Positions 54,863-64,000 of a DNA stretch of 64,000 nucleotides are shown here, piece after piece. Made by a program: the position numbers and the translations under genes. The stretch is taken from NCBI RefSeq assembly GCF_905175385.1, contig NZ_HG992749.1, forward strand, positions 2,542,001-2,606,000, in the 5' to 3' direction. The notes under the pieces were generated by a model, which had not been told where the DNA came from, searched no databases, and saw nothing but the letters and a program-made list of their open reading frames with translations. This DNA is from Vibrio sp. B1FLJ16. Lineage in GTDB: Bacteria > Pseudomonadota > Gammaproteobacteria > Enterobacterales > Vibrionaceae. Within the stretch, counting starts at the first letter, position 1. Each line of letters opens with the position of its first letter.

Positions 54863-55582
54863 TTAAGCGGTACGCTTGAATTTAATGTCCCATACACCGT
54901 GACCAAGACGGTGACCGCGAGCTTCAAATTTCGTCAGCGGACGGTCTTCAGGGCGAGGTACGAAATCACCTTCTTCAGCAATGTTTGCATAACCCGGCGC
55001 CTGGTTCATGATTTCAATCATATGCTCAGCGTAGTTTTCCCAGTCCGTTGCCATGTGGAAAATACCTTCATTAGGGATCAGCTTCTGGCGAACCATTTCA
55101 GCGAATTCAAGCTGTACGATACGACGCTTGTGGTGACGCTTTTTATGCCATGGGTCTGGGAAGAACAGCTGCAGCGTGGTCAGGCTGTCATTCGGGATCA
55201 TGTGTTCGAACACTTCAACCGCATCGTGACACATTACGCGCAGGTTAGTGATACCCGCTTCACGTGCATCAGAAAGACAAGCACCAACACCCGGGCTGTG
55301 TACTTCGATACCGATGAAATTCTTCTCCGGTGCGTTCTTTGCCATTTCAACCAGTGAAGCACCCATACCGAAACCGATCTCAAGCACAACCGGGTTGTCG
55401 TTACCAAAAACTTCTTTCCAGTCAAGAAGTTCTGCTTTGTAATCGATACCCATTGTTGGCCAGCACTCATTCATCGCGTTTTCCTGGCCTTTGGTTAAAC
55501 GACCTTCACGACGAACGAAACTGCGGATTTTACGGATCAGCTTGCCGTCTTCGTTGTATTCGTTAGTGGTTACTTCACTCAT
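54863..55582 (-). CDS. trmB: tRNA (guanine-N7-)-methyltransferase TrmB
   Basis: TrmB makes m7G46 in tRNA. From the ATG at 55582 it has 239 residues; a start five codons earlier is possible. Motifs are [32 protein letters not shown] and [16 protein letters not shown], all diagnostic. It diverges from mutY, as in E. coli. Confidence 0.96.
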
Positions 55583-55772
55583 TGGTTTTGCCTGCACATT
55601 GATTAATCAAAGCGGGGATTATCCAAAGAATTTACCCAGGTGCAAGTTTTTGTTGAGCTCTCAGTCTATAGATCATGCCACCTGTAATATCCCCACAGTT
55701 TACCAGTTGTACTTATCCCCTATTCTGTGGTGCAATTTTGCCCCTAACCAATAATAGAATACAGAGCAAGTC

Positions 55773-56850
55773 GTGACCCCTTTCGCCAGTGCCATCTTGA
55801 AATGGTATGACGCTTATGGAAGAAAAGAGCTTCCGTGGCAACAAAACAAAACCGCCTACAGTGTCTGGTTGTCTGAAATCATGCTTCAGCAAACTCAGGT
55901 CACCACGGTTATTCCTTACTACCAGCGTTTTCTGGAGCGTTTTCCGACCGTGATCGATCTTGCTAATGCCGAGCAAGATGAAGTGCTGCACCTGTGGACA
56001 GGTCTCGGATACTACGCCCGGGCACGTAACCTACATAAAGCGGCCAAAGAGGTCGCCTATAAATACAGTGGTGAATTCCCTCTGGATATAGAGCAGATGA
56101 ATGCCCTGCCGGGTATTGGCCGCTCAACAGCTGCAGCGGTATTGTCATCCGTATATAAGCAGCCCCATGCGATTCTAGATGGTAACGTCAAGCGAACGCT
56201 TTCCCGCTGTTTTGCCGTAGAAGGCTGGCCAGGGCAGAAAAAAGTGGAAAACCAGCTTTGGGAGATTGCCGAGGCACATACCCCACAAACGGATGTCGAC
56301 AAATACAATCAAGCCATGATGGACATGGGTGCTATTGTTTGCACACGCAGTAAGCCTAAGTGCAGCTTATGCCCTGTCGCAGATTTATGTGTGGCGAAAA
56401 AAAAAGGGCAATATACTCGACTATCCGGGCAAGAAACCGAAAAAAGAGAAACCGGTGAAACAAACACGCTTTGTTATGCTGCATCACCATAATGCCAACG
56501 GGCATGAAGTATGGCTGGAACAGAGACCTCAGACAGGGATTTGGGGTGGGTTATTCTGTTTCCCGCAAACTGAACATGTGGATATAGAAAGCGATATTGA
56601 CTTGCTGTTGGAGCAAAGAGGTATTCAGGCTAGAGACATAAAGGATCAGCAAACACTGATCACTTTCCGCCATACGTTCAGTCATTACCACCTCGATATC
56701 ACACCTATTTTGATTGACCTGTCAAAGCAACCCGATGTGGTAATGGAAGACAACAAAGGTCTTTGGTATAACTTATCTCAACCTGAAGAGGTAGGGTTGG
56801 CTGCACCAGTGAAGTTATTACTGGAAGCGCTGCCCCACGAACTTCGTTAA
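55773..56850 (+). CDS. mutY: Adenine DNA glycosylase MutY, with a one-base frameshift
   Basis: MutY removes adenine opposite 8-oxoguanine. The first 210 residues hold all catalytic parts: E35 in SEIMLQQTQ, the helix-hairpin-helix [13 protein letters not shown]136 in LDGNVKR, and the Fe-S cysteines C190, C197, C200 and C206. The frame is broken at an A9 run (56397-56405); A8 would continue as [15 protein letters not shown] into the C-terminal NUDIX-like 8-oxoG recognition domain, giving 358 residues. If the shift is real, the cell would make MutY without this domain. An assembly error is more likely. Confidence 0.93.
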
Positions 56851-56870
56851 TTGAATACAAAGGAGTCATT

Positions 56871-57143
56871 ATGAGCCGCACTGTGTTTTGTGCTCGACTA
56901 AACAAAGAAGCTGAAGGCCTAGACTTTCAGCTTTACCCAGGTGAACTAGGCAAACGCATTTTCGACAACATTTCGAAAGAAGCTTGGGCTCAGTGGCAAC
57001 ATAAGCAAACCATGTTGATCAATGAAAAGAAACTCAACATGATGGATCCAGAGCACCGTAAACTGCTTGAAACCGAAATGGTCAACTTCCTGTTTGAAGG
57101 CAAAGAAGTCCACATTGAAGGCTACACACCGCCTAGCGAATAA
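56871..57143 (+). CDS. yggX: Fe(2+)-trafficking protein YggX
   Basis: YggX protects Fe-S clusters from oxidative damage and helps iron trafficking. The 90 residues begin [20 protein letters not shown] and contain [17 protein letters not shown], the family core. It follows mutY by 20 bases, in the conserved mutY-yggX-mltC order. Confidence 0.96.
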
Positions 57144-57179
57144 AGCTATTTGTTCAATCAAATAAGTTTGTTCAAAAAC

Positions 57180-57213
57180 AATGACACCACACATCACATT
57201 GTGGTGTCATTCT
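57180..57213 (+). terminator. Terminator after yggX
   Basis: AATGACACCAC-N9-GTGGTGTCATT, 11-bp stem, short T tract. Confidence 0.7.
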
Positions 57214-57241
57214 CTCTTCAGATCCCATCCAATAATAAACT

Positions 57242-58381
57242 ATGAAAAAAATTGTCTTAATTGCTGCCGCGCTTTTGATGGCAGGTTGTAGCCGTGAGTT
57301 CGTTGAAAGATTCTATGATGTCAATTATGAGCCGACTAACCGTTTCGCCAATAATTTAGCCGAGTTACCGGGACAATTTGAAAAAGATACCGCCGCTCTC
57401 GATGCTCTGATCAACAGTTTTTCTGGGAACATTCAGAAGCGTTGGGGGAAAAAAGAAGTTAAGTATGCGGGTAAAAGTAACTACGTTAAGTATATCGACA
57501 ACTATCTCAGCCGCGCCGAAGTCGACTTTAAAAAAGGCGTCATAACTATTGAGACAGTCTCACCTACCGAACCCCAAAAGCACCTTAAAAATGCGATAAT
57601 AACTACCCTGTTAACACCCGATGATCCTGCCAGCGTCGACTTGTTTTCTTCCAAAGAGATCAAACTCGAAGGTCAACCATTTCTTTATAAACAGGTCGTT
57701 GACCAGGATAAAAAGCCAATTCAATGGTCGTGGCGCGCGAGTCGGTTTGCCGATTACCTGCTCGCTAACCAGATAAAAACTAAAAACGTTGACTTCAAAA
57801 AAGCCTATTACGTCGAAATTCCATTAGTGGAAGACCACTTCTCTCAGCGCAGCTATCAGTATGCAGATATAGTGCGCCGTGCGTCGAAAAAGTACGATAT
57901 TCCTGAAGATTTGATTTATGCCATTATAAAAACAGAAAGCAGCTTTAACCCTTATGCGGTGAGCTGGGCAAATGCCTATGGCCTGATGCAGGTCGTGCCG
58001 AAAACAGCAGGACGCGACGTATTCAAACTAGTCAAGAAACGCTCAGGGCAACCTAGCCCGGAATATTTGTTCAATCCGGAAAACAACATAGATACCGGCA
58101 CGGCTTACTTTTATATCCTGAAGAACCGTTATTTGAGAGATGTGAGTCACCCTACTTCGCTTGAGTACAGCATAATCTCAGCATACAACGGCGGAACTGG
58201 CGGTGTACTCAACACCTTTAATCGCAGTGACCGTAAACGCGCGATGCGAGACCTGAACTCTCTGCAACCCAATCAGGTTTACTGGGCGCTGACTAAAAAA
58301 CATCCCAATGCAGAAGCACGTCGTTACCTAGAAAAAGTTACAAATTTCAAAAAGGAATTTAACTCCCAGCAAACTTTGTAG
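57242..58381 (+). CDS. mltC: Membrane-bound lytic transglycosylase MltC
   Basis: MltC cleaves peptidoglycan to 1,6-anhydromuropeptides. The 379 residues begin with a lipoprotein signal peptide and lipobox LLMAGC (lipidated C16), have an N-terminal DUF3393-type domain, and end with a lysozyme-like domain with catalytic Glu in IIKTESSFNP, followed by AYGLMQVVP and AYNGG. It is the last protein gene before the tRNA cluster. Confidence 0.96.
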   Translation: MKKIVLIAAALLMAGCSREFVERFYDVNYEPTNRFANNLAELPGQFEKDTAALDALINSFSGNIQKRWGKKEVKYAGKSNYVKYIDNYLSRAEVDFKKGVITIETVSPTEPQKHLKNAIITTLLTPDDPASVDLFSSKEIKLEGQPFLYKQVVDQDKKPIQWSWRASRFADYLLANQIKTKNVDFKKAYYVEIPLVEDHFSQRSYQYADIVRRASKKYDIPEDLIYAIIKTESSFNPYAVSWANAYGLMQVVPKTAGRDVFKLVKKRSGQPSPEYLFNPENNIDTGTAYFYILKNRYLRDVSHPTSLEYSIISAYNGGTGGVLNTFNRSDRKRAMRDLNSLQPNQVYWALTKKHPNAEARRYLEKVTNFKKEFNSQQTL

Positions 58382-58441
58382 CGACAGTTGAACAAAAAGC
58401 GCTCGAACAACCACATTTTTGAAATTATTTGAAAAAAGAGG

Positions 58442-58470
58442 TTGACGCAAAGCGGTAAAATCCGTTTAAT
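58442..58470 (+). promoter_or_regulatory. Promoter of tRNA operon 1
   Basis: TTGACG-N17-TTTAAT, with a G+C-rich discriminator (AGCGCTCCG) before the first tRNA, as in stringently controlled stable-RNA promoters. Confidence 0.85.
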
Positions 58471-58481
58471 AGCGCTCCGTT

Positions 58482-58557
58482 GCCCGGATAGCTCAGTCGG
58501 TAGAGCAGAGGATTGAAAATCCTCGTGTCGGTGGTTCGATTCCGCCTCCGGGCACCA
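58482..58557 (+). tRNA. tRNA-Phe (GAA), acceptor variant GCCCGGA
   Basis: Complete cloverleaf of 76 bases with encoded CCA. Acceptor stem GCCCGGA/TCCGGGC and anticodon GAA in CTTGAAAATC context. First gene of operon 1. Confidence 0.97.
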
Positions 58558-58611
58558 CAATTTCTTAATTGTTGGTGCTTAGCACGAACAGTTAGTAAAA
58601 GAATAAGATGT

Positions 58612-58687
<76 letters not shown>

Positions 58688-58694
58688 TTCTTTT

Positions 58695-58770
58695 GCCTCG
58701 ATAGCTCAGTCGGTAGAGCAGAGGATTGAAAATCCTCGTGTCGGTGGTTCGATTCCGCCTCGAGGCACCA
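58695..58770 (+). tRNA. tRNA-Phe (GAA), acceptor variant GCCTCGA
   Basis: 76 bases including CCA. Identical to the 58482 copy except for two paired acceptor-stem changes (GCCTCGA/TCGAGGC). Confidence 0.97.
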
Positions 58771-58813
58771 TTATTTGGTGCGCTTGCTTATAGCAAGTCA
58801 CAAACAGAATAGT

Positions 58814-58889
58814 TCCTCCTTAGCTCAGTTGGTAGAGCGACGGACTGTTAATCCGCAGGTCGCTGGTTCGAGCCCAGCAGGAGGAGCCA
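58814..58889 (+). tRNA. tRNA-Asn (GTT)
   Basis: 76 bases including CCA. Acceptor TCCTCCT/AGGAGGA, anticodon GTT in CTGTTAATC. Confidence 0.97.
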
Positions 58890-58961
58890 CTTTCTAGGAT
58901 TTCATTTAGGTGAGATTCTAAAAAGAAGAGTTCATCTCTTCTGAGAAAAAGAATAAAGTGT

Positions 58962-59037
<76 letters not shown>

Positions 59038-59044
59038 TTCTTTT

Positions 59045-59120
59045 GCCTCGATAGCTCAGTCGGTAGAGCAGAGGATTGAAAATCCTCGTGTCGGTGGTTC
59101 GATTCCGCCTCGAGGCACCA
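59045..59120 (+). tRNA. tRNA-Phe (GAA), acceptor variant GCCTCGA
   Basis: Copy of the gene at 58695, 350 bases downstream. Confidence 0.97.
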
Positions 59121-59163
59121 TTATTTGGTGCGCTTGCTTATTGCAAGACACAAACAGAATAGT

Positions 59164-59239
59164 TCCTCCTTAGCTCAGTTGGTAGAGCGACGGACTGTTA
59201 ATCCGCAGGTCGCTGGTTCGAGCCCAGCAGGAGGAGCCA
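59164..59239 (+). tRNA. tRNA-Asn (GTT)
   Basis: Copy of the gene at 58814, 350 bases downstream; last gene of operon 1. Confidence 0.97.
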
Positions 59240-59246
59240 ATTTTAG

Positions 59247-59275
59247 AAAACCGCATCACTCGATGCGGTTTTTTT
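59247..59275 (+). terminator. Terminator of tRNA operon 1
   Basis: AAAACCGCATC-ACTC-GATGCGGTTTTTTT directly after the last tRNA. It resembles the terminator of operon 2. Confidence 0.88.
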
Positions 59276-59505
59276 ATATCTCAACATATTCCCTCCTTCA
59301 TCTTGTTTTTCCTCTTTTTAGTTTCAGAGCATATGAAACCTGCTTCGCCAAATAGACTTATTTTACGCTAAAAATTTAATCCCTATCATAATTTAAACAA
59401 GTGCCTGTAGGCGCAATTGTCCTTCTTAAATAAGATGCCCTGTCTATTCAATTATCTCTATAAGCCATGCTTTGCATAGCAAATGAAAAATTATTCGAGC
59501 CAAAT

Positions 59506-61131
59506 ATGAAACTAAAAACTCAAGCTTATTTACTCTCTGCAATCATACTGTTCGCGCTGCTAGCCTTGACGGCGACCGGATTGTGGACACTTCGAGTCGC
59601 AAGTAACCTCGATAATAAAGCCCGGGTAACTGAGCTGTTCAAAAGCGCATACAGCATTCTTACTGAAGTTGAAAAAATGGCCGCAAGTGGACAGATACCT
59701 GAAGATGAAGCAAAAGCGTTGGCCACTCGCTTACTTCGTAACAACATTTATAAAGATAACGAATACGTTTATGTCGCTGATGAAAACATGGTTTTTGTCG
59801 CTGCGCCTCTTGACCCGCAATTACATGGCACTAGTTTCCACGACTTCAAAGACAGTAATAACAATAGTGTTGGCCAGTTAATATTAGATATTTTAGGTCC
59901 CAAAACAGGTCAGATCGTTGAATATACCTGGAGCCAAAAACAAGCAGATGGAAGCATTGAAGAAAAGCTTTCGATCGCATCAAAGACACCTCATTGGAAC
60001 TGGGTTGTTGGTACCGGCATTGGATTTAATGAGGTAAACGCACGCTTTTGGGCTACAGCACAATGGCAGCTGGTGCTCTGTCTGGTTATTGCATCTGCTA
60101 TTCTTGCAAGCCTAATCATCGCTATCCGTAAGATGTTGAGCATATTAGGGGGAGAACCCAACGATGTACGTAACGCTGTCCAGGCTGTCGCACAGGGGAA
60201 TATTCAGACTAGTTTCGATACGGTAGCAGTAAAAGGCAGCATCTATGAGGCAGTGCAGGTGATGAGCCAGTCGCTGGCTACAATGGTGACAAACCTTGAT
60301 AAATCTATGCATGCCCTACGTTCAGAACTGACAGCGGTAGAGTCACGCTCTAAGAACATCGCAGAACTGACCTCATCTCAGCAACAATCAACAGCCATGA
60401 TCGCAACAGCTATGACGGAAATGGCCTCCTCTGCCAACCAGGTAGCCAGTTCGGCTAATGATACCGCCCAGAGTACGGATGAAGCGGATAAACAAAGTCA
60501 GCAGACCCAGTCACTGATCCGCAGTACTGTCGATAATATCCAAGGTCTTGCAACCCAGTTAAATACCGCCAGCCAGGCTGTAGCCGATTTAGACCAGGAC
60601 GTAAATAACATCGTCAAAGTGTTAGATGTTATTGGTGATATTGCAGAGCAAACCAATTTGCTCGCGCTTAACGCAGCTATTGAAGCGGCAAGAGCAGGTG
60701 AACAAGGAAGAGGTTTCGCCGTGGTGGCTGATGAAGTCCGTAATCTTGCAGGGCGCACTCAGGACAGCACTAAAGAGATCCAGAATATGATCTCTAATCT
60801 ACAAGCCGGCTCCCACAATGCGATTCAGACAATGGAGATATGTGCAGAAACCAGTGAAAGCACCGTCACAGAATCTATGAGCGCTTCTGACGCACTACAG
60901 CAGATCGTCACCTCACTAGAATCCATTACAGCTATGAGCCAGCAAATTGCGACAGCTGCTGCAGAGCAGACACTGGTTAGTGATGATATCTCACAACGTA
61001 TTAACCTGATTGAAGAAAGTGGATACCAGTTAAGTTCCGTAGTTAAAGAGAGCCAATCCAGCACACAAAGCTTGACGTCTCTGGCAAACGAACTAGAAGG
61101 CTGGGTGAATAAGTTCTCAGTAAAGCGCTAG
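59506..61131 (+). CDS. Methyl-accepting chemotaxis protein with a periplasmic Cache domain
   Basis: A chemoreceptor of 541 residues from the ATG at 59506 ([10 protein letters not shown]); an in-frame ATG 13 codons earlier is less likely. TM1 (about 7-29) and TM2 (about 187-209) enclose a single-Cache domain containing [17 protein letters not shown] and [15 protein letters not shown]-like segment follows, then the signalling domain with hairpin tip [20 protein letters not shown] and [10 protein letters not shown]. There is no C-terminal CheR-binding pentapeptide. The ligand is unknown. The gene stands alone between two tRNA operons. Confidence 0.93.
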
Positions 61132-61153
61132 TTTAACGTCAATCGGTGAATCA

Positions 61154-61178
61154 AAAGCACGTTTTCGGACGTGCTTTC
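61154..61178 (+). terminator. Terminator after the chemoreceptor gene
   Basis: AAAGCACGT-TTTCGG-ACGTGCTTT, 9-bp stem, with an interrupted T tract (TTTCTGCTTTT). Confidence 0.65.
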
Positions 61179-61324
61179 TGCTTTTGCCGCACTTATTTTG
61201 CCATCAAACTCCTAATCCCCTCTCAAAAAACGCTTAAGTTAAGGTGGGTAGATTTCAAAAATGCATAAAAACAGCCCACTCCGAGCACAATTTCATCAAA
61301 CGATATTTTATTTAAATTTTATTG

Positions 61325-61353
61325 TTGACCTGTGAGCCGAAAAACCGTTTAAT
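61325..61353 (+). promoter_or_regulatory. Promoter of tRNA operon 2
   Basis: TTGACC-N17-TTTAAT. It shares AAACCGTTTAATA-type sequence with the promoter of operon 1, with a C-rich discriminator (CATCCCGTC). Confidence 0.85.
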
Positions 61354-61363
61354 ACATCCCGTC

Positions 61364-61439
61364 GCCCGGATAGCTCAGTCGGTAGAGCAGAGGATTGAAA
61401 ATCCTCGTGTCGGTGGTTCGATTCCGCCTCCGGGCACCA
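61364..61439 (+). tRNA. tRNA-Phe (GAA), acceptor variant GCCCGGA
   Basis: 76 bases with CCA, identical to the first gene of operon 1. Confidence 0.97.
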
Positions 61440-61493
61440 CAATTTCATAATTGTTGGTGCTTGACACGAACAATTAGCAAAAGAATAAGGTAC

Positions 61494-61569
<76 letters not shown>

Positions 61570-61590
61570 CTTTATTTTAAGAAGAATAAT

Positions 61591-61666
61591 TCCTCCTTAG
61601 CTCAGTTGGTAGAGCGACGGACTGTTAATCCGCAGGTCGCTGGTTCGAGCCCAGCAGGAGGAGCCA
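61591..61666 (+). tRNA. tRNA-Asn (GTT)
   Basis: 76 bases with CCA, identical to the Asn genes of operon 1. Confidence 0.97.
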
Positions 61667-61704
61667 CTTTTAGTTATCAAGATGATTTCTTGTTAACGAA
61701 ATGT

Positions 61705-61780
<76 letters not shown>

Positions 61781-61813
61781 CTTTCTTCTCGAAGAAGAAT
61801 ATTAAAAGATAAT

Positions 61814-61889
61814 TCCTCCTTAGCTCAGTTGGTAGAGCGACGGACTGTTAATCCGCAGGTCGCTGGTTCGAGCCCAGCAGGAGGAGCCA
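61814..61889 (+). tRNA. tRNA-Asn (GTT)
   Basis: 76 bases with CCA; last gene of operon 2. The Phe copy expected between Thr and Asn is missing in this operon. Confidence 0.97.
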
Positions 61890-61896
61890 CTTTTAG

Positions 61897-61926
61897 AAAG
61901 CCGCATCATTTGATGTGGCTTTTTTA
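61897..61926 (+). terminator. Terminator of tRNA operon 2
   Basis: AGCCGCATCA-TT-TGATGTGGCT followed by TTTTT, homologous to the operon 1 terminator. Confidence 0.85.
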
Positions 61927-62880
61927 TACCTCAAAGATCCTGACATCACGCAAAATCAATAACAAAGCACCATGAGTTACTCCAAGCTCGGCTGGCTCTT
62001 CTATAATAAAGCTATTTTTACAACTTCACTTTCTATAGCATTTCACTAATCCATTGAAAGAAAGTTATATTAAACCTCCCTTCTTCAAGCACTACGAAGC
62101 ACATTTAATCTAACCGGTGCATAATCATACCAAAACAACAGCCTCAGAATGGACCTACAGTAGCTACATTTATTCTTATCAAAGTGACTAACCTAGCTAA
62201 TCGCATCTCCACTCAGGTAGCGATACAGAACGTTTAAAGGACTCAGAATTCACATCCGCGCGAACCTACCATAGCGCTTCGCTCTGTGTCCCCTGGAATA
62301 ATCATCAAACATACGAACACCTGATATTAAGAAGGCTAAGTTATCGATGAATTTTAAAGAAATAACACATGTTTGAATCAGTACTAATAAAGAAATTAAT
62401 TTTAATCGTAAGTTCTGCATCAGTCAGGAGACAAAACGTTTCACTCATTAATCAGCAGGACTGGTTCTCAGAAAAAATAAGTATCCGATGTTCTGTTTCT
62501 ACCTACCTTATAAAGCAACATGTAATACACATCAGATTTACTCGAAGAAATGCTAAGGCATTGACTCTATTTAAAGCGAACAATATAAGCGATTCACTCA
62601 AAGATATAACCGCAGATAAACAAACAGCGGTTTAGACAGTTACGCCCTTACGACTGACCGTAGAGATCTGGTTTCAAGTTATAAGCTAATGAAAGCTCTA
62701 TCTAGCACCTCCCGTCCCTGATATTTCATATTACTCACGAGGATTCAAAATAAGTACATTTCATTTGAGACTGAATGCTGACTCTCTTAAGGCTAATAGA
62801 GCATGATTTCACGATGGGCCTGTAAGAGGTGTAACGATAAATTAGATCTAATAGTCCGAGGGCGATGTTCTAAGAGCAAT
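61927..62880. other. Gene-poor spacer between the tRNA and rRNA operons
   Basis: About 950 bases with no recognised gene. An 88-codon frame at 62369-62635 lacks a good ribosome binding site and any family likeness. From about 62740 onward, short matches to the tRNA-remnant repeats (for example GATTCAAAATAAGT) suggest very old copies of that array. Confidence 0.5.
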
Positions 62881-62949
62881 ATAACAAAGCCCCTATTCTT
62901 CAGCGGATAGGACGTGCTGCGCACAATAAGACCTGTACACGATTGGAAC

Positions 62950-63470
62950 GCAGTTCTCCTTGAAAAGGAAACGTTGCTGCATAAGCAACAAAAGCCTAGT
63001 CCTTCAACCAAGCTTTCTAATACGTAGCAGAGAACCTGAGAGCACAGGCTATAGGTAGCTCCTCCAACGAGAACCATGGGCGAAAGCTAACTCAATATAA
63101 TCAAGAGGATCTCCGGTATTTCTGCTTGGTTCTGGAATTAATAGCGATACAGCAAGGCATGCAGACGCGGGGTTCATTGTCGAAGGCCAACCAAACTCAG
63201 TACAAACAAAAAGACCCCTGCATTTCTGCTGAGGTCTGGAATAAGTGGCGAAGCGGCTGGAGTCTCAGACTACGGACAAGCCCTCCTGCGGAACTCGATT
63301 TCCCTGAAAGGGAAACTATGTATCATAAACGAAAAAAGCCCTGCTATTTCTAGCAAGGCTTCAAAATAAGTGGTGTAGCGGCTGGGGTTGCAGGCAACCG
63401 GGACTCGATTTCCCTGAAAGGGAAACTATGCGTCATAAACGAAAAAAAGCCTAGTCTTTCGACTAGGCTT
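62950..63470 (-). repeat. Decaying array of tRNA 3'-end remnants and terminators
   Basis: Downstream of tRNA-Asp (minus strand), modules repeat at about 110-125 bases. On the plus strand each has a terminator inverted repeat, then an AATAAGTGGCGGAGCGG-like block (the end of tRNA-Asp), then CTCGATTTCCCTGAAAGGGAAACTATG-like sequence. Clear copies of the tail start at 63291 and 63401; the AATAAGTGG block is at 63240, 63365 and 63474. More diverged copies are seen at about 63105-63235 and 62950-63030, where AAAGCCTAGTC and TTTCTAATA are still readable. Confidence 0.75.
63332..63362 (-). terminator. Terminator-like hairpin within the remnant array
   Basis: On the minus strand GAAGCCTTGCTA-GAAA-TAGCAGGGCTTTTTTC, one mismatch, with a T6 tract. 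Confidence 0.7.
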
Positions 63471-63473
63471 TCT
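63442..63473 (-). terminator. Terminator after tRNA-Asp
   Basis: On the minus strand AAAGCCTAGTC-GAAA-GACTAGGCTTTTTTT begins seven bases after the tRNA CCA end. Confidence 0.9.
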
Positions 63474-63479
63474 AATAAG

Positions 63480-63556
63480 TGGCGGAGCGGACGGGACTCG
63501 AACCCGCGACCCCCGGCGTGACAGGCCGGTATTCTAACCAACTGAACTACCGCTCC
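63480..63556 (-). tRNA. tRNA-Asp (GTC)
   Basis: 77 bases with CCA on the minus strand. Acceptor GGAGCGG/CCGCTCC and anticodon GTC in CTGTCAC. It lies after the distal 5S gene of the rRNA operon. Confidence 0.97.
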
Positions 63557-63587
63557 GCATTGGTCAGACTATAAAGTCAAATAAGAA

Positions 63588-63704
63588 CCTGGCGATGTTC
63601 TACTCTCACATGGGGAAACCCCACACTACCATCGACGCTACTTTGTTTCACTTCTGAGTTCGGAATGGAAGTCAGGTGGGTCCAAAGTGCTATGATCGCC
63701 AAGT
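63588..63704 (-). rRNA. rrf: 5S ribosomal RNA (distal copy)
   Basis: About 117 bases on the minus strand, starting ACTTGGCGATCATAG and ending TCGCCAGG. Conserved blocks CCGAACTCAGAAGTGAAAC and GTGTGGGGTTTCCCCATG are present. It differs from the proximal copy by paired changes in helix II and a one-base indel. Confidence 0.95.
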
Positions 63705-63721
63705 AAAATTCTGTTTGTAAA

Positions 63722-63797
<76 letters not shown>

Positions 63798-63817
63798 ATC
63801 AAGATGTCCCTTAAGAC

Positions 63818-63848
63818 TAAAAAAAGCCCGTCATTCAAACGGGCCCTT
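63818..63848 (-). terminator. Terminator-like hairpin between the 5S gene and tRNA-Thr
   Basis: On the minus strand GCCCGT-TTGAATG-ACGGGC is followed by T7. It lies inside the rRNA operon between the proximal 5S and tRNA-Thr. Confidence 0.75.
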
Positions 63849-63894
63849 TCAACTGTTGTCTTCACCTATAAAAAGGTAAAAACCAAATTTAAAG

Positions 63895-64000
63895 CCTGGC
63901 GATGTCCTACTCTCACATGGGGAAACCCCACACTACCATCGGCGCTGTTTTGTTTCACTTCTGAGTTCGGAATGGAATCAGGTGGGTCCAAAACGCTATG
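63895..64000 (-). rRNA. rrf: 5S ribosomal RNA (proximal copy, partial)
   Basis: The 3' 106 bases of a second 5S gene on the minus strand, cut by the window edge. CCGAACTCAGAAGTGAAAC and the GTGTGGGGTTTCCCC block are present. The 23S gene is expected beyond base 64000. Confidence 0.95.

Follow-up and report, generated by a model that had tools for sequence, protein, structure and literature searches.

A tandem array of putatively structured, TLR-like repeats behind tRNA-Asp at the end of a Vibrio rRNA operon

Behind the tRNA-Asp gene at the end of an rRNA operon of Vibrio sp. B1FLJ16, we found five contiguous repeat units on the minus strand (Table 1), with an architecture strongly like that of the tRNA-linked repeats (TLRs) of E. 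coli. Each unit, as predicted from its sequence, combines an intrinsic terminator (P1) with two hairpins (P2 and P3) and with sequence copied, trailer included, from the T-loop/acceptor 3' end of the cognate tRNA, the general plan being trailer, P1, P2, a piece of the tRNA-Asp T-loop/T-stem, P3 followed by CCRG, and the acceptor 3' strand with CCA. We lean slightly towards regarding the array as TLR-type elements behind an rRNA-operon tRNA-Asp, whose read-through units would be processed, whose terminators would stop the polymerase and whose arrays would be upheld by recombination. On the minus strand, the order ahead of the array is 5S-tRNA-Thr-5S-tRNA-Asp, and the operon runs on into 23S past the edge of the window (L001), the window being the whole stretch of 64,000 nucleotides that was analysed.

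Table 1. Coordinates in the window of the rRNA operon end and of the repeat units behind it
Feature	Positions	Strand	Remarks
rRNA operon end	63587..64000	minus	context of the array
5S	63894-64000	minus	cut by the window end
tRNA-Thr(GGT)	63722-63797	minus	
5S	63587-63703	minus	
tRNA-Asp(GTC)	63480..63556	minus	source of the copied 3' end
Unit 1	63371..63479	minus	intact; 101.1 bits with covariance model R1, whose 36 units include this one
Unit 1, terminator P1	63444-63473	minus	with T-run
Unit 1, hairpin P2	63409-63425	minus	read from sequence
Unit 1, hairpin P3	63386-63399	minus	read from sequence; followed by CCAG, which is not in the tRNA
Unit 1, acceptor-like CCGCTACACCA	63371-63381	minus	acceptor copy has changes
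Unit 2	63246..63370	minus	61.9 bits
Unit 2, terminator	63335-63362	minus	type different from unit 1
Unit 3	63142..63245	minus	degenerate; 51.7 bits
Unit 4	63025..63141	minus	hardly recognisable; 6.3 bits, E 0.21
Unit 5	62901..63024	minus	33.8 bits; fold; 83% repeat of tRNA-Asp end/terminator
Unit 5, terminator P1	62990-63017	minus	

The original prediction had described repeats after tRNA-Asp at 62950..63556. The repeats are real, being found both by the covariance model and by a self-repeat search, which returned a 77-nt direct repeat (63289-63365 versus 63399-63475, 81%), a three-copy family beginning AATAAGTGG (63240, 63365 and 63474; 79% and 62% against the reference copy) and a 46-nt pair at 83% (62987-63032 and 63442-63487). 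The lower limit did not stand, however, as the covariance model gives a larger array that goes down to 62901. The first unit begins at the base directly after the CCA of tRNA-Asp, and the units measure 104-125 nt.

Unit 1 alone is complete in the window and reads trailer CTTATT, P1, spacer, P2, CGAGTCCC, P3 with CCAG, and CCGCTACACCA, where CGAGTCCC equals the T-loop/T-stem part of tRNA-Asp. The 'tail' that had been thought to be shared between copies is indeed repeated, but it is not a single element; it consists of P2 plus this T-loop/T-stem piece. Unit 2 has the same P2 as unit 1, a longer insert where P3 would be and the acceptor copy CCGCTTCGCCA. The terminator hairpin of unit 3 is imperfect and absent from the list of terminator-like sites, and P2 and P3 are lost there, as they are in unit 4, which by itself does not score above chance (tRNA-Asp itself reaches 9.4 bits with the same model) and is placed, by inference, by the tiling between units 3 and 5. 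Unit 5 has kept P1 and a P2-like hairpin, changed from that of units 1 and 2, and has lost P3 and the acceptor copy. Judged by these parts, the proximal unit is structurally intact and the others are decaying.

Between 62300 and 63720 there are five terminator-like sites, against a mean of 1.3 (sd 1.1) in shuffled sequence; three are the P1 of units 1, 2 and 5, and two overlap each other within unit 5. With the five tiled units, these sites confirm the proposed joining of a tRNA-Asp 3'-end copy to a terminator. Promoter-like sites in the same interval gave no signal above chance (two versus a shuffled mean of 2.1). Single-sequence folding was weak, both for units 1-5 (z of -1.6, -0.7, 1.1, 0.3 and -1.2) and for five units of relatives (-1.1, -2.0, -1.4, -0.5 and 0.2). 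At gathering scores, Rfam matched only 5S and tRNA in 55000-64000, and the Asp units of five loci gave only sub-threshold noise at E<=5. A distant blastn search of the plasmid collection with 62400-63480 found no match. Beyond unit 5, 27 nt (62729-62755) resemble the junction of units 1 and 2 at 81%, and 12 nt (62861-62872) are identical to the 3' end of 5S; both are possibly older remnants, and the 12-nt match did not extend any further. Elsewhere in the window, two similar tRNA clusters (58482-59239 and 61364-61889; Phe, Thr and Asn, some repeated) stand either side of an ORF (59467-61131, 554 aa) that by eye resembles a chemotaxis receptor.

The case for structured RNA comes from the family as a whole. 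We extracted 98 units, 93 of them distinct, and aligned 36 picked for standard length and spread. In a test that took in P1, P3 and a closing stem between alignment columns 80-83 and 107-110, 96.4% of cells were paired versus 80.5 after shuffling, 118 cells carried changes on both sides versus 36.5, and the covariation score was 0.529 versus 0.224; none of 500 shuffles reached any of these values, although such tests overstate the signal, the sequences being related. Slid versions of the helices were 33-52% paired. Two counts showed no excess over the shuffles: pairs changed on both sides (11 versus 9.7 shuffled; 148/500) and further pair types (28 versus 25.9; 82/500). The closing stem, 87.5% paired and with no both-side changes, was later dropped. 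P3 is 96.7% paired and shows both-side changes in two of its five pairs: C-G replaces G-C at one pair in 4 sequences, and C-G or G-C replaces U-A at another in 16. P2 is not alignable in a single register and was scored unit by unit against shuffled sequence optimised equally, which gave a mean of 5.3 versus 2.9 and p<=0.05 at 22 of 55 loci (one unit each). Its arms are wholly different by species (TTGGTC/GACCAA, TTTCCCT/AGGGAAA, CTTCCTT/AAGGAAG, TTCGACC/GGTCGAA, TTTGCTC/GAGCAAA), and its between-locus identity, at a mean of 0.48, is about that of the spacer (0.44); to judge by these arms, the predicted pairing of P2 is kept while its sequence drifts. For the other parts the mean identities are 0.68 (trailer), 0.62 (P1), 0.92 (CGAGTCCC), 0.73 (P3), 0.82 (CCRG), 0.68 (acceptor) and 0.88 (GCCA).

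The best-kept helix is P1, with 99.5% of cells paired and both-side changes in 9 of 11 pairs. Together with the terminator-like sites in three units of the window and the dual terminators that close three E. coli rRNA operons (PMC8144298), this would suit units that act as fail-safe terminators only, insulating a strongly transcribed rRNA operon and carrying P2, P3 and the tRNA copy as passengers. We hold that explanation to be decidedly unlikely; it leaves unexplained the upkeep of P2 and P3, the tracking of the tRNA described next, and the fuller copies of tRNA-Pro and tRNA-Trp with inserts in their loops.

The third base of the acceptor 3' strand of tRNA-Asp is G or A, and the copies follow it. 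After removal of four duplicate loci, 71 complete units were listed with tRNA-Asp in view, 41 of them with an acceptor copy regular enough for typing. In 40 of the 41 the base is that of the adjacent tRNA-Asp (23 G/G and 17 A/A; 10 and 6 among first units alone), the single exception pairing an A in the tRNA with a G in the unit; the Fisher p of 1.2e-10 is overstated, units within a locus being related. Trailers often follow that of the tRNA as well (CTACAAT in L052, TTTATTT in L033), albeit not always (2/7 bases in L055, 4/7 in L029, 0/7 in L103). Two units of the same array have a median identity of 0.91 (58 pairs), and two units from different loci one of 0.54 (4220 pairs). Nine of the 16 arrays compared average 0.90-0.99 and seven 0.45-0.70; the array of the window is of the mixed sort, with an identity of 0.70 between units 1 and 2. 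As had been predicted, degeneration mostly increases with distance from the tRNA, the median HMM score falling from 57.9 through 44.9 and 23.3 to 17.1 bits for units 1-4 (57, 41, 27 and 14 units). Fifth units (n=4) are the exception at 58.8 bits, because they sit in long homogeneous arrays.

Several of these observations could also be accounted for by neutral debris, that is, by recombination in tRNA and rRNA loci that copies tRNA ends and terminators under no selection, with gene conversion keeping young copies similar to each other and to the tRNA. Such turnover predicts both homogeneous and mixed arrays, conversion from the tRNA alone would account for the tracking, and the decay of distal units and the weak folding energies fit equally well. 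What neutral debris does not predict is that P3 and CCRG, which are not tRNA sequence, are nevertheless better conserved between loci than the spacer, that the pairing of P1, P2 and P3 is kept through sequence change, or that a hairpin-CCC[AG]G insert recurs across several isotypes (see below), and we regard it as unlikely. With P1 and P3 covarying, P2 pairing kept and the acceptor base tracking the tRNA, the units look like structured RNA and not like plain debris. 'Decaying remnants', as the copies had been called, is apt for units 3-5; for the proximal units it is not, given the covarying hairpins and the tRNA tracking across the family.

A blastn search with the region gave matches in 110 of 148 same-genus genomes, some of them only to short terminator-like pieces. 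The exact signature across P3 occurs in 36 stretches of GTDB contigs from Vibrio, Photobacterium, Enterovibrio, one Vibrionaceae MAG and two other MAGs, one of which (L031) has a lone 24-nt match only; the Asp units sit behind tRNA-Asp. With the 36-unit covariance model, the best match reaches E<=5e-13, or about 61 bits, in 50 of the 150 genomes of the family (21 of 51 in the genus of the window and 29 of 99 outside it; six genera overall). The cut was set there because terminators probably make up most of the matches at 35-50 bits, and for the same reason an unfiltered tally of 147/150 was not accepted. An order-wide search of 197 genomes, run with strict filters at the cost of weak matches, listed no match above 50.3 bits outside the family. 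In the source genome, the HMM found no full unit at the five further tRNA-Asp loci, so the array is dispensable at most Asp loci of this genome. The second of the two other MAGs, a contig filed under Amphritea (L063, 2828-3045), carries two Vibrio-type Asp units that closely resemble the ones in Vibrio fortis (L053), and its binning may be wrong. Downstream of tRNA-Asp in L007, L019, L023, L027 and L131, a similar sequence starting TACCAATC-GG/TAAAATTAAC, which resembles one end of an insertion sequence, interrupts the Asp units, and Asp units of Vibrio and Photobacterium in L050, L034, L103, L046 and L059 have a GGACTAGGCGTCC-like extra small hairpin beside the acceptor copy.

Repeats of this kind are not confined to tRNA-Asp. 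In three genomes (the source genome, G040 and G244), the last 24 tRNA bases plus 6 of the trailer were sought again within 700 bases, using the stretches behind tRNA clusters and leaving out tRNAs taken as lying between 16S and 23S. Copies of the 3' end were found for 12 of 99 tRNAs examined in the source genome (123 in all; 6 loci, 5 isotypes), 22 of 105 in G040 (of 127; 11 loci, 9 isotypes) and 19 of 121 in G244 (of 129; 13 loci, 5 isotypes), with non-cognate controls at 3/1980, 14/2100 and 8/2420, respectively; one copy can serve several tRNAs of a cluster, and the locus counts are therefore safer. Three E. coli stretches yielded 2 of 13 tRNAs, both at the known rtT locus (control 0/98). 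The Pro and Trp repeats (Vibrio, G244) reproduce nearly the whole tRNA, interrupted by inserts in the anticodon loop and in the T-loop, and a Gly repeat has its insert at the T-loop. In the source genome, cognate 3'-end copies stand behind Pro (L068 and L070), Gly (L072), Met (L086), Asn (L079) and Trp (L069), those of Pro, Trp and Gly being fuller and tRNA-like, with an insert in the anticodon loop, the T-loop or both.

A stricter alignment divided the 72 matches listed into 26 to the trailer only, 8 to 5' or internal tRNA pieces and 38 3'-end copies, of which 19, E. coli's two included, start in the T-loop (positions 55-58). The T-loop is a usual place of crossover for integrases, and the repeats might accordingly be scars of integrative elements that recombined into tRNA 3' ends and left short direct repeats. 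That origin is extremely improbable for units that in the window are 104-125 nt long, tandem and mostly equipped with a terminator, and whose inserts are common to several isotypes. One such insert consists of CCC[AG]G preceded by a hairpin of 4 bp with a loop of 4 nt. Sequence up to 700 bases downstream of tRNAs (89.5 kb) contains 23 of them and the other 452 kb contain 4, against about 5 in Markov-shuffled sequence of both sets (0.8, 1.6 and 2.8 across the three genomes). In 18 of the 23, belonging to Asp, Trp and Leu repeats, the bases that follow fit the 3' end of the upstream tRNA at least as well as that of any other isotype, though one of these (L162, 6/11 bases) looks like chance. The test did not rank the cognate first in two units of L181, nor in a Ser repeat (L135) that by eye has the insert (CACTCCGCCACATT).

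The units had been likened to the rtT repeats of E. coli tyrT-tyrV (RtT, RF00391), and rightly so in that both follow a tRNA in tandem and copy its 3' end, in rtT from the T-loop onwards. RF00391 itself (gathering score 45 bits; positive control L107 at 133-138 bits), however, matched none of the units in the window (L001, E<=5) and nothing in the source genome at E<=1e-5. True RtT is found elsewhere in the family, in 26 of 150 genomes above the gathering score and in 36, none of the genus of the window, at E<=1e-5. The matches (L155 226-355, L178 1378-1507 and L188-L195) lie behind tRNA-Ser(TGA) or (GGA), not tRNA-Tyr; the eight loci fetched all adjoin tRNA-Ser (GGA in four, TGA in four), and G244 has two more beside tRNA-Ser(TGA), at 51.3 and 48.3 bits. 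The closing 5' strand fits the cognate 3' end best for E. coli Tyr (1/1) and Ser(TGA) (6/6). Of the four Ser(GGA) cases, two behave likewise, L188 is a tie and L190 departs from the rule, its strand making 7 pairs with the cognate and 8 with Tyr. Because the closing strand mostly fits the cognate tRNA, the RtT insert appears to be homologous between these loci and the tRNA-derived stem exchanged. Both inserts accompany more than one isotype, hairpin-CCC[AG]G being found with Asp, Trp, Leu and Ser, and that of RtT with E. coli Tyr and, in Vibrionaceae, with two types of tRNA-Ser. This raises the possibility, which we put forward tentatively and consider doubtful as it stands, that TLRs of Vibrionaceae and Enterobacteriaceae are one family of RNA cassettes behind many tRNA genes. 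Such a cassette would adopt the 3' end of the upstream tRNA and be cut out by tRNA maturation, its insert shared and its tRNA-derived part and pairing partner rewritten to the cognate.

In E. coli K-12, 22 TLRs are known at ten loci (PMC8144298, for this and the following; Rudd 1999, cited there). Each locus has one to five of them downstream of a tRNA or rRNA gene, and the last 18-19 bp of a repeat are identical to the 3' end of that gene; TLRs were first described in 1978, an early claim about rtT has since been withdrawn, and RrA/B/F are given there as the only ones with a known function. The array likewise follows a tRNA gene of the same operon and has five units, the fourth by inference. 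Its copy is split into CGAGTCCC, P3-CCRG and the acceptor strand, however, and units 1 and 2 match 12 of the last 18 tRNA-Asp bases; because P3 interrupts the copy, the Asp units lack the strict identity, and we call them a variant of the TLRs rather than a member. These Asp units also differ in mostly having an intrinsic terminator of their own. Other repeats do reach 18-19 bp, namely Gly in the source genome (L072, 20 bases), Pro (L145) and Phe (L132) in G040, and Ser (L178) in G244; the locus L169 of G244, a probable Photobacterium, resembles a tRNA-Pro/tRNA-His repeat cluster of Photobacterium phosphoreum that was reportedly described in the 1980s as tandem tRNA-Pro copies with pseudogenes and which, unlike the array, would be a tRNA cluster and not an rRNA-operon end. 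We found no description of Vibrionaceae TLRs in a literature search that covered papers outside subscription, and the phrase 'tRNA-linked repeat' was met there only in PMC8144298 and PMC9245011, the latter also mentioning the RrA/B/F and TLR content of the former.

RrA, RrB and RrF, which lie between the two terminators that end E. coli rrnA, rrnB and rrnD, are read-through sRNAs conserved within Enterobacteriales, with a suggested RNase E cut after the repeat (PMC8144298). They are conserved structured RNAs between terminators behind an rRNA operon, as those of the array would be; what they copy is the end of 5S, and they bind CsrA, whereas the array copies tRNA-Asp. A CsrA sponge was dropped as unlikely, since GGA motifs are depleted in the Asp units (78 in 93 units versus a mean of 119 in mononucleotide shuffles). 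By analogy with 3'ETS-leuZ of E. coli, a tRNA trailer that acts as a sponge (PMC8144298), the copied tRNA end might instead be a decoy that binds a tRNA-processing or -cleaving enzyme or pairs with a tRNA or sRNA. Both lie beyond a tRNA 3' end and the CCA and trailer copies are kept, but 3'ETS-leuZ is a single trailer and not a repeat with a tRNA copy, and the acceptor copy is, unlike CGAGTCCC, among the more variable tRNA-derived parts; a decoy role is very improbable.

For the TLR-type explanation that we favour, we count the five tiled units, the terminators, the covariation, the tracking, the copies behind other tRNAs and the shared insert; counted against it are the weak folding, the two pair counts within the range of the shuffles, the relatedness of the sequences, the missing promoter signal, the single complete unit with its altered acceptor copy and the other Asp loci without a full unit. 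RrA/B/F offer a precedent for its processing model (PMC8144298). A polymerase getting past the first terminator would transcribe the units, whose copied CCA and trailer could be cut by tRNA 3'-end maturation, with RNase E followed by exonucleases, which would release short structured RNAs. Every further terminator would halt polymerases still running, so that the units may both release processed RNAs and aid termination. Recombination of units with each other and with the tRNA ahead of them would let arrays grow and stay alike; distal units of some age, such as units 3-5 in the window, would escape it and decay.

The family-wide set of covarying hairpins, a tRNA part that tracks its tRNA and shared inserts argues against pure debris, and it points to the parts worth mutating and to the places in which to seek processed RNA. 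It also carries a warning for annotation, in that the ends of rRNA and tRNA operons in Vibrionaceae can hold structured RNA, of which the Asp type is not covered by Rfam.
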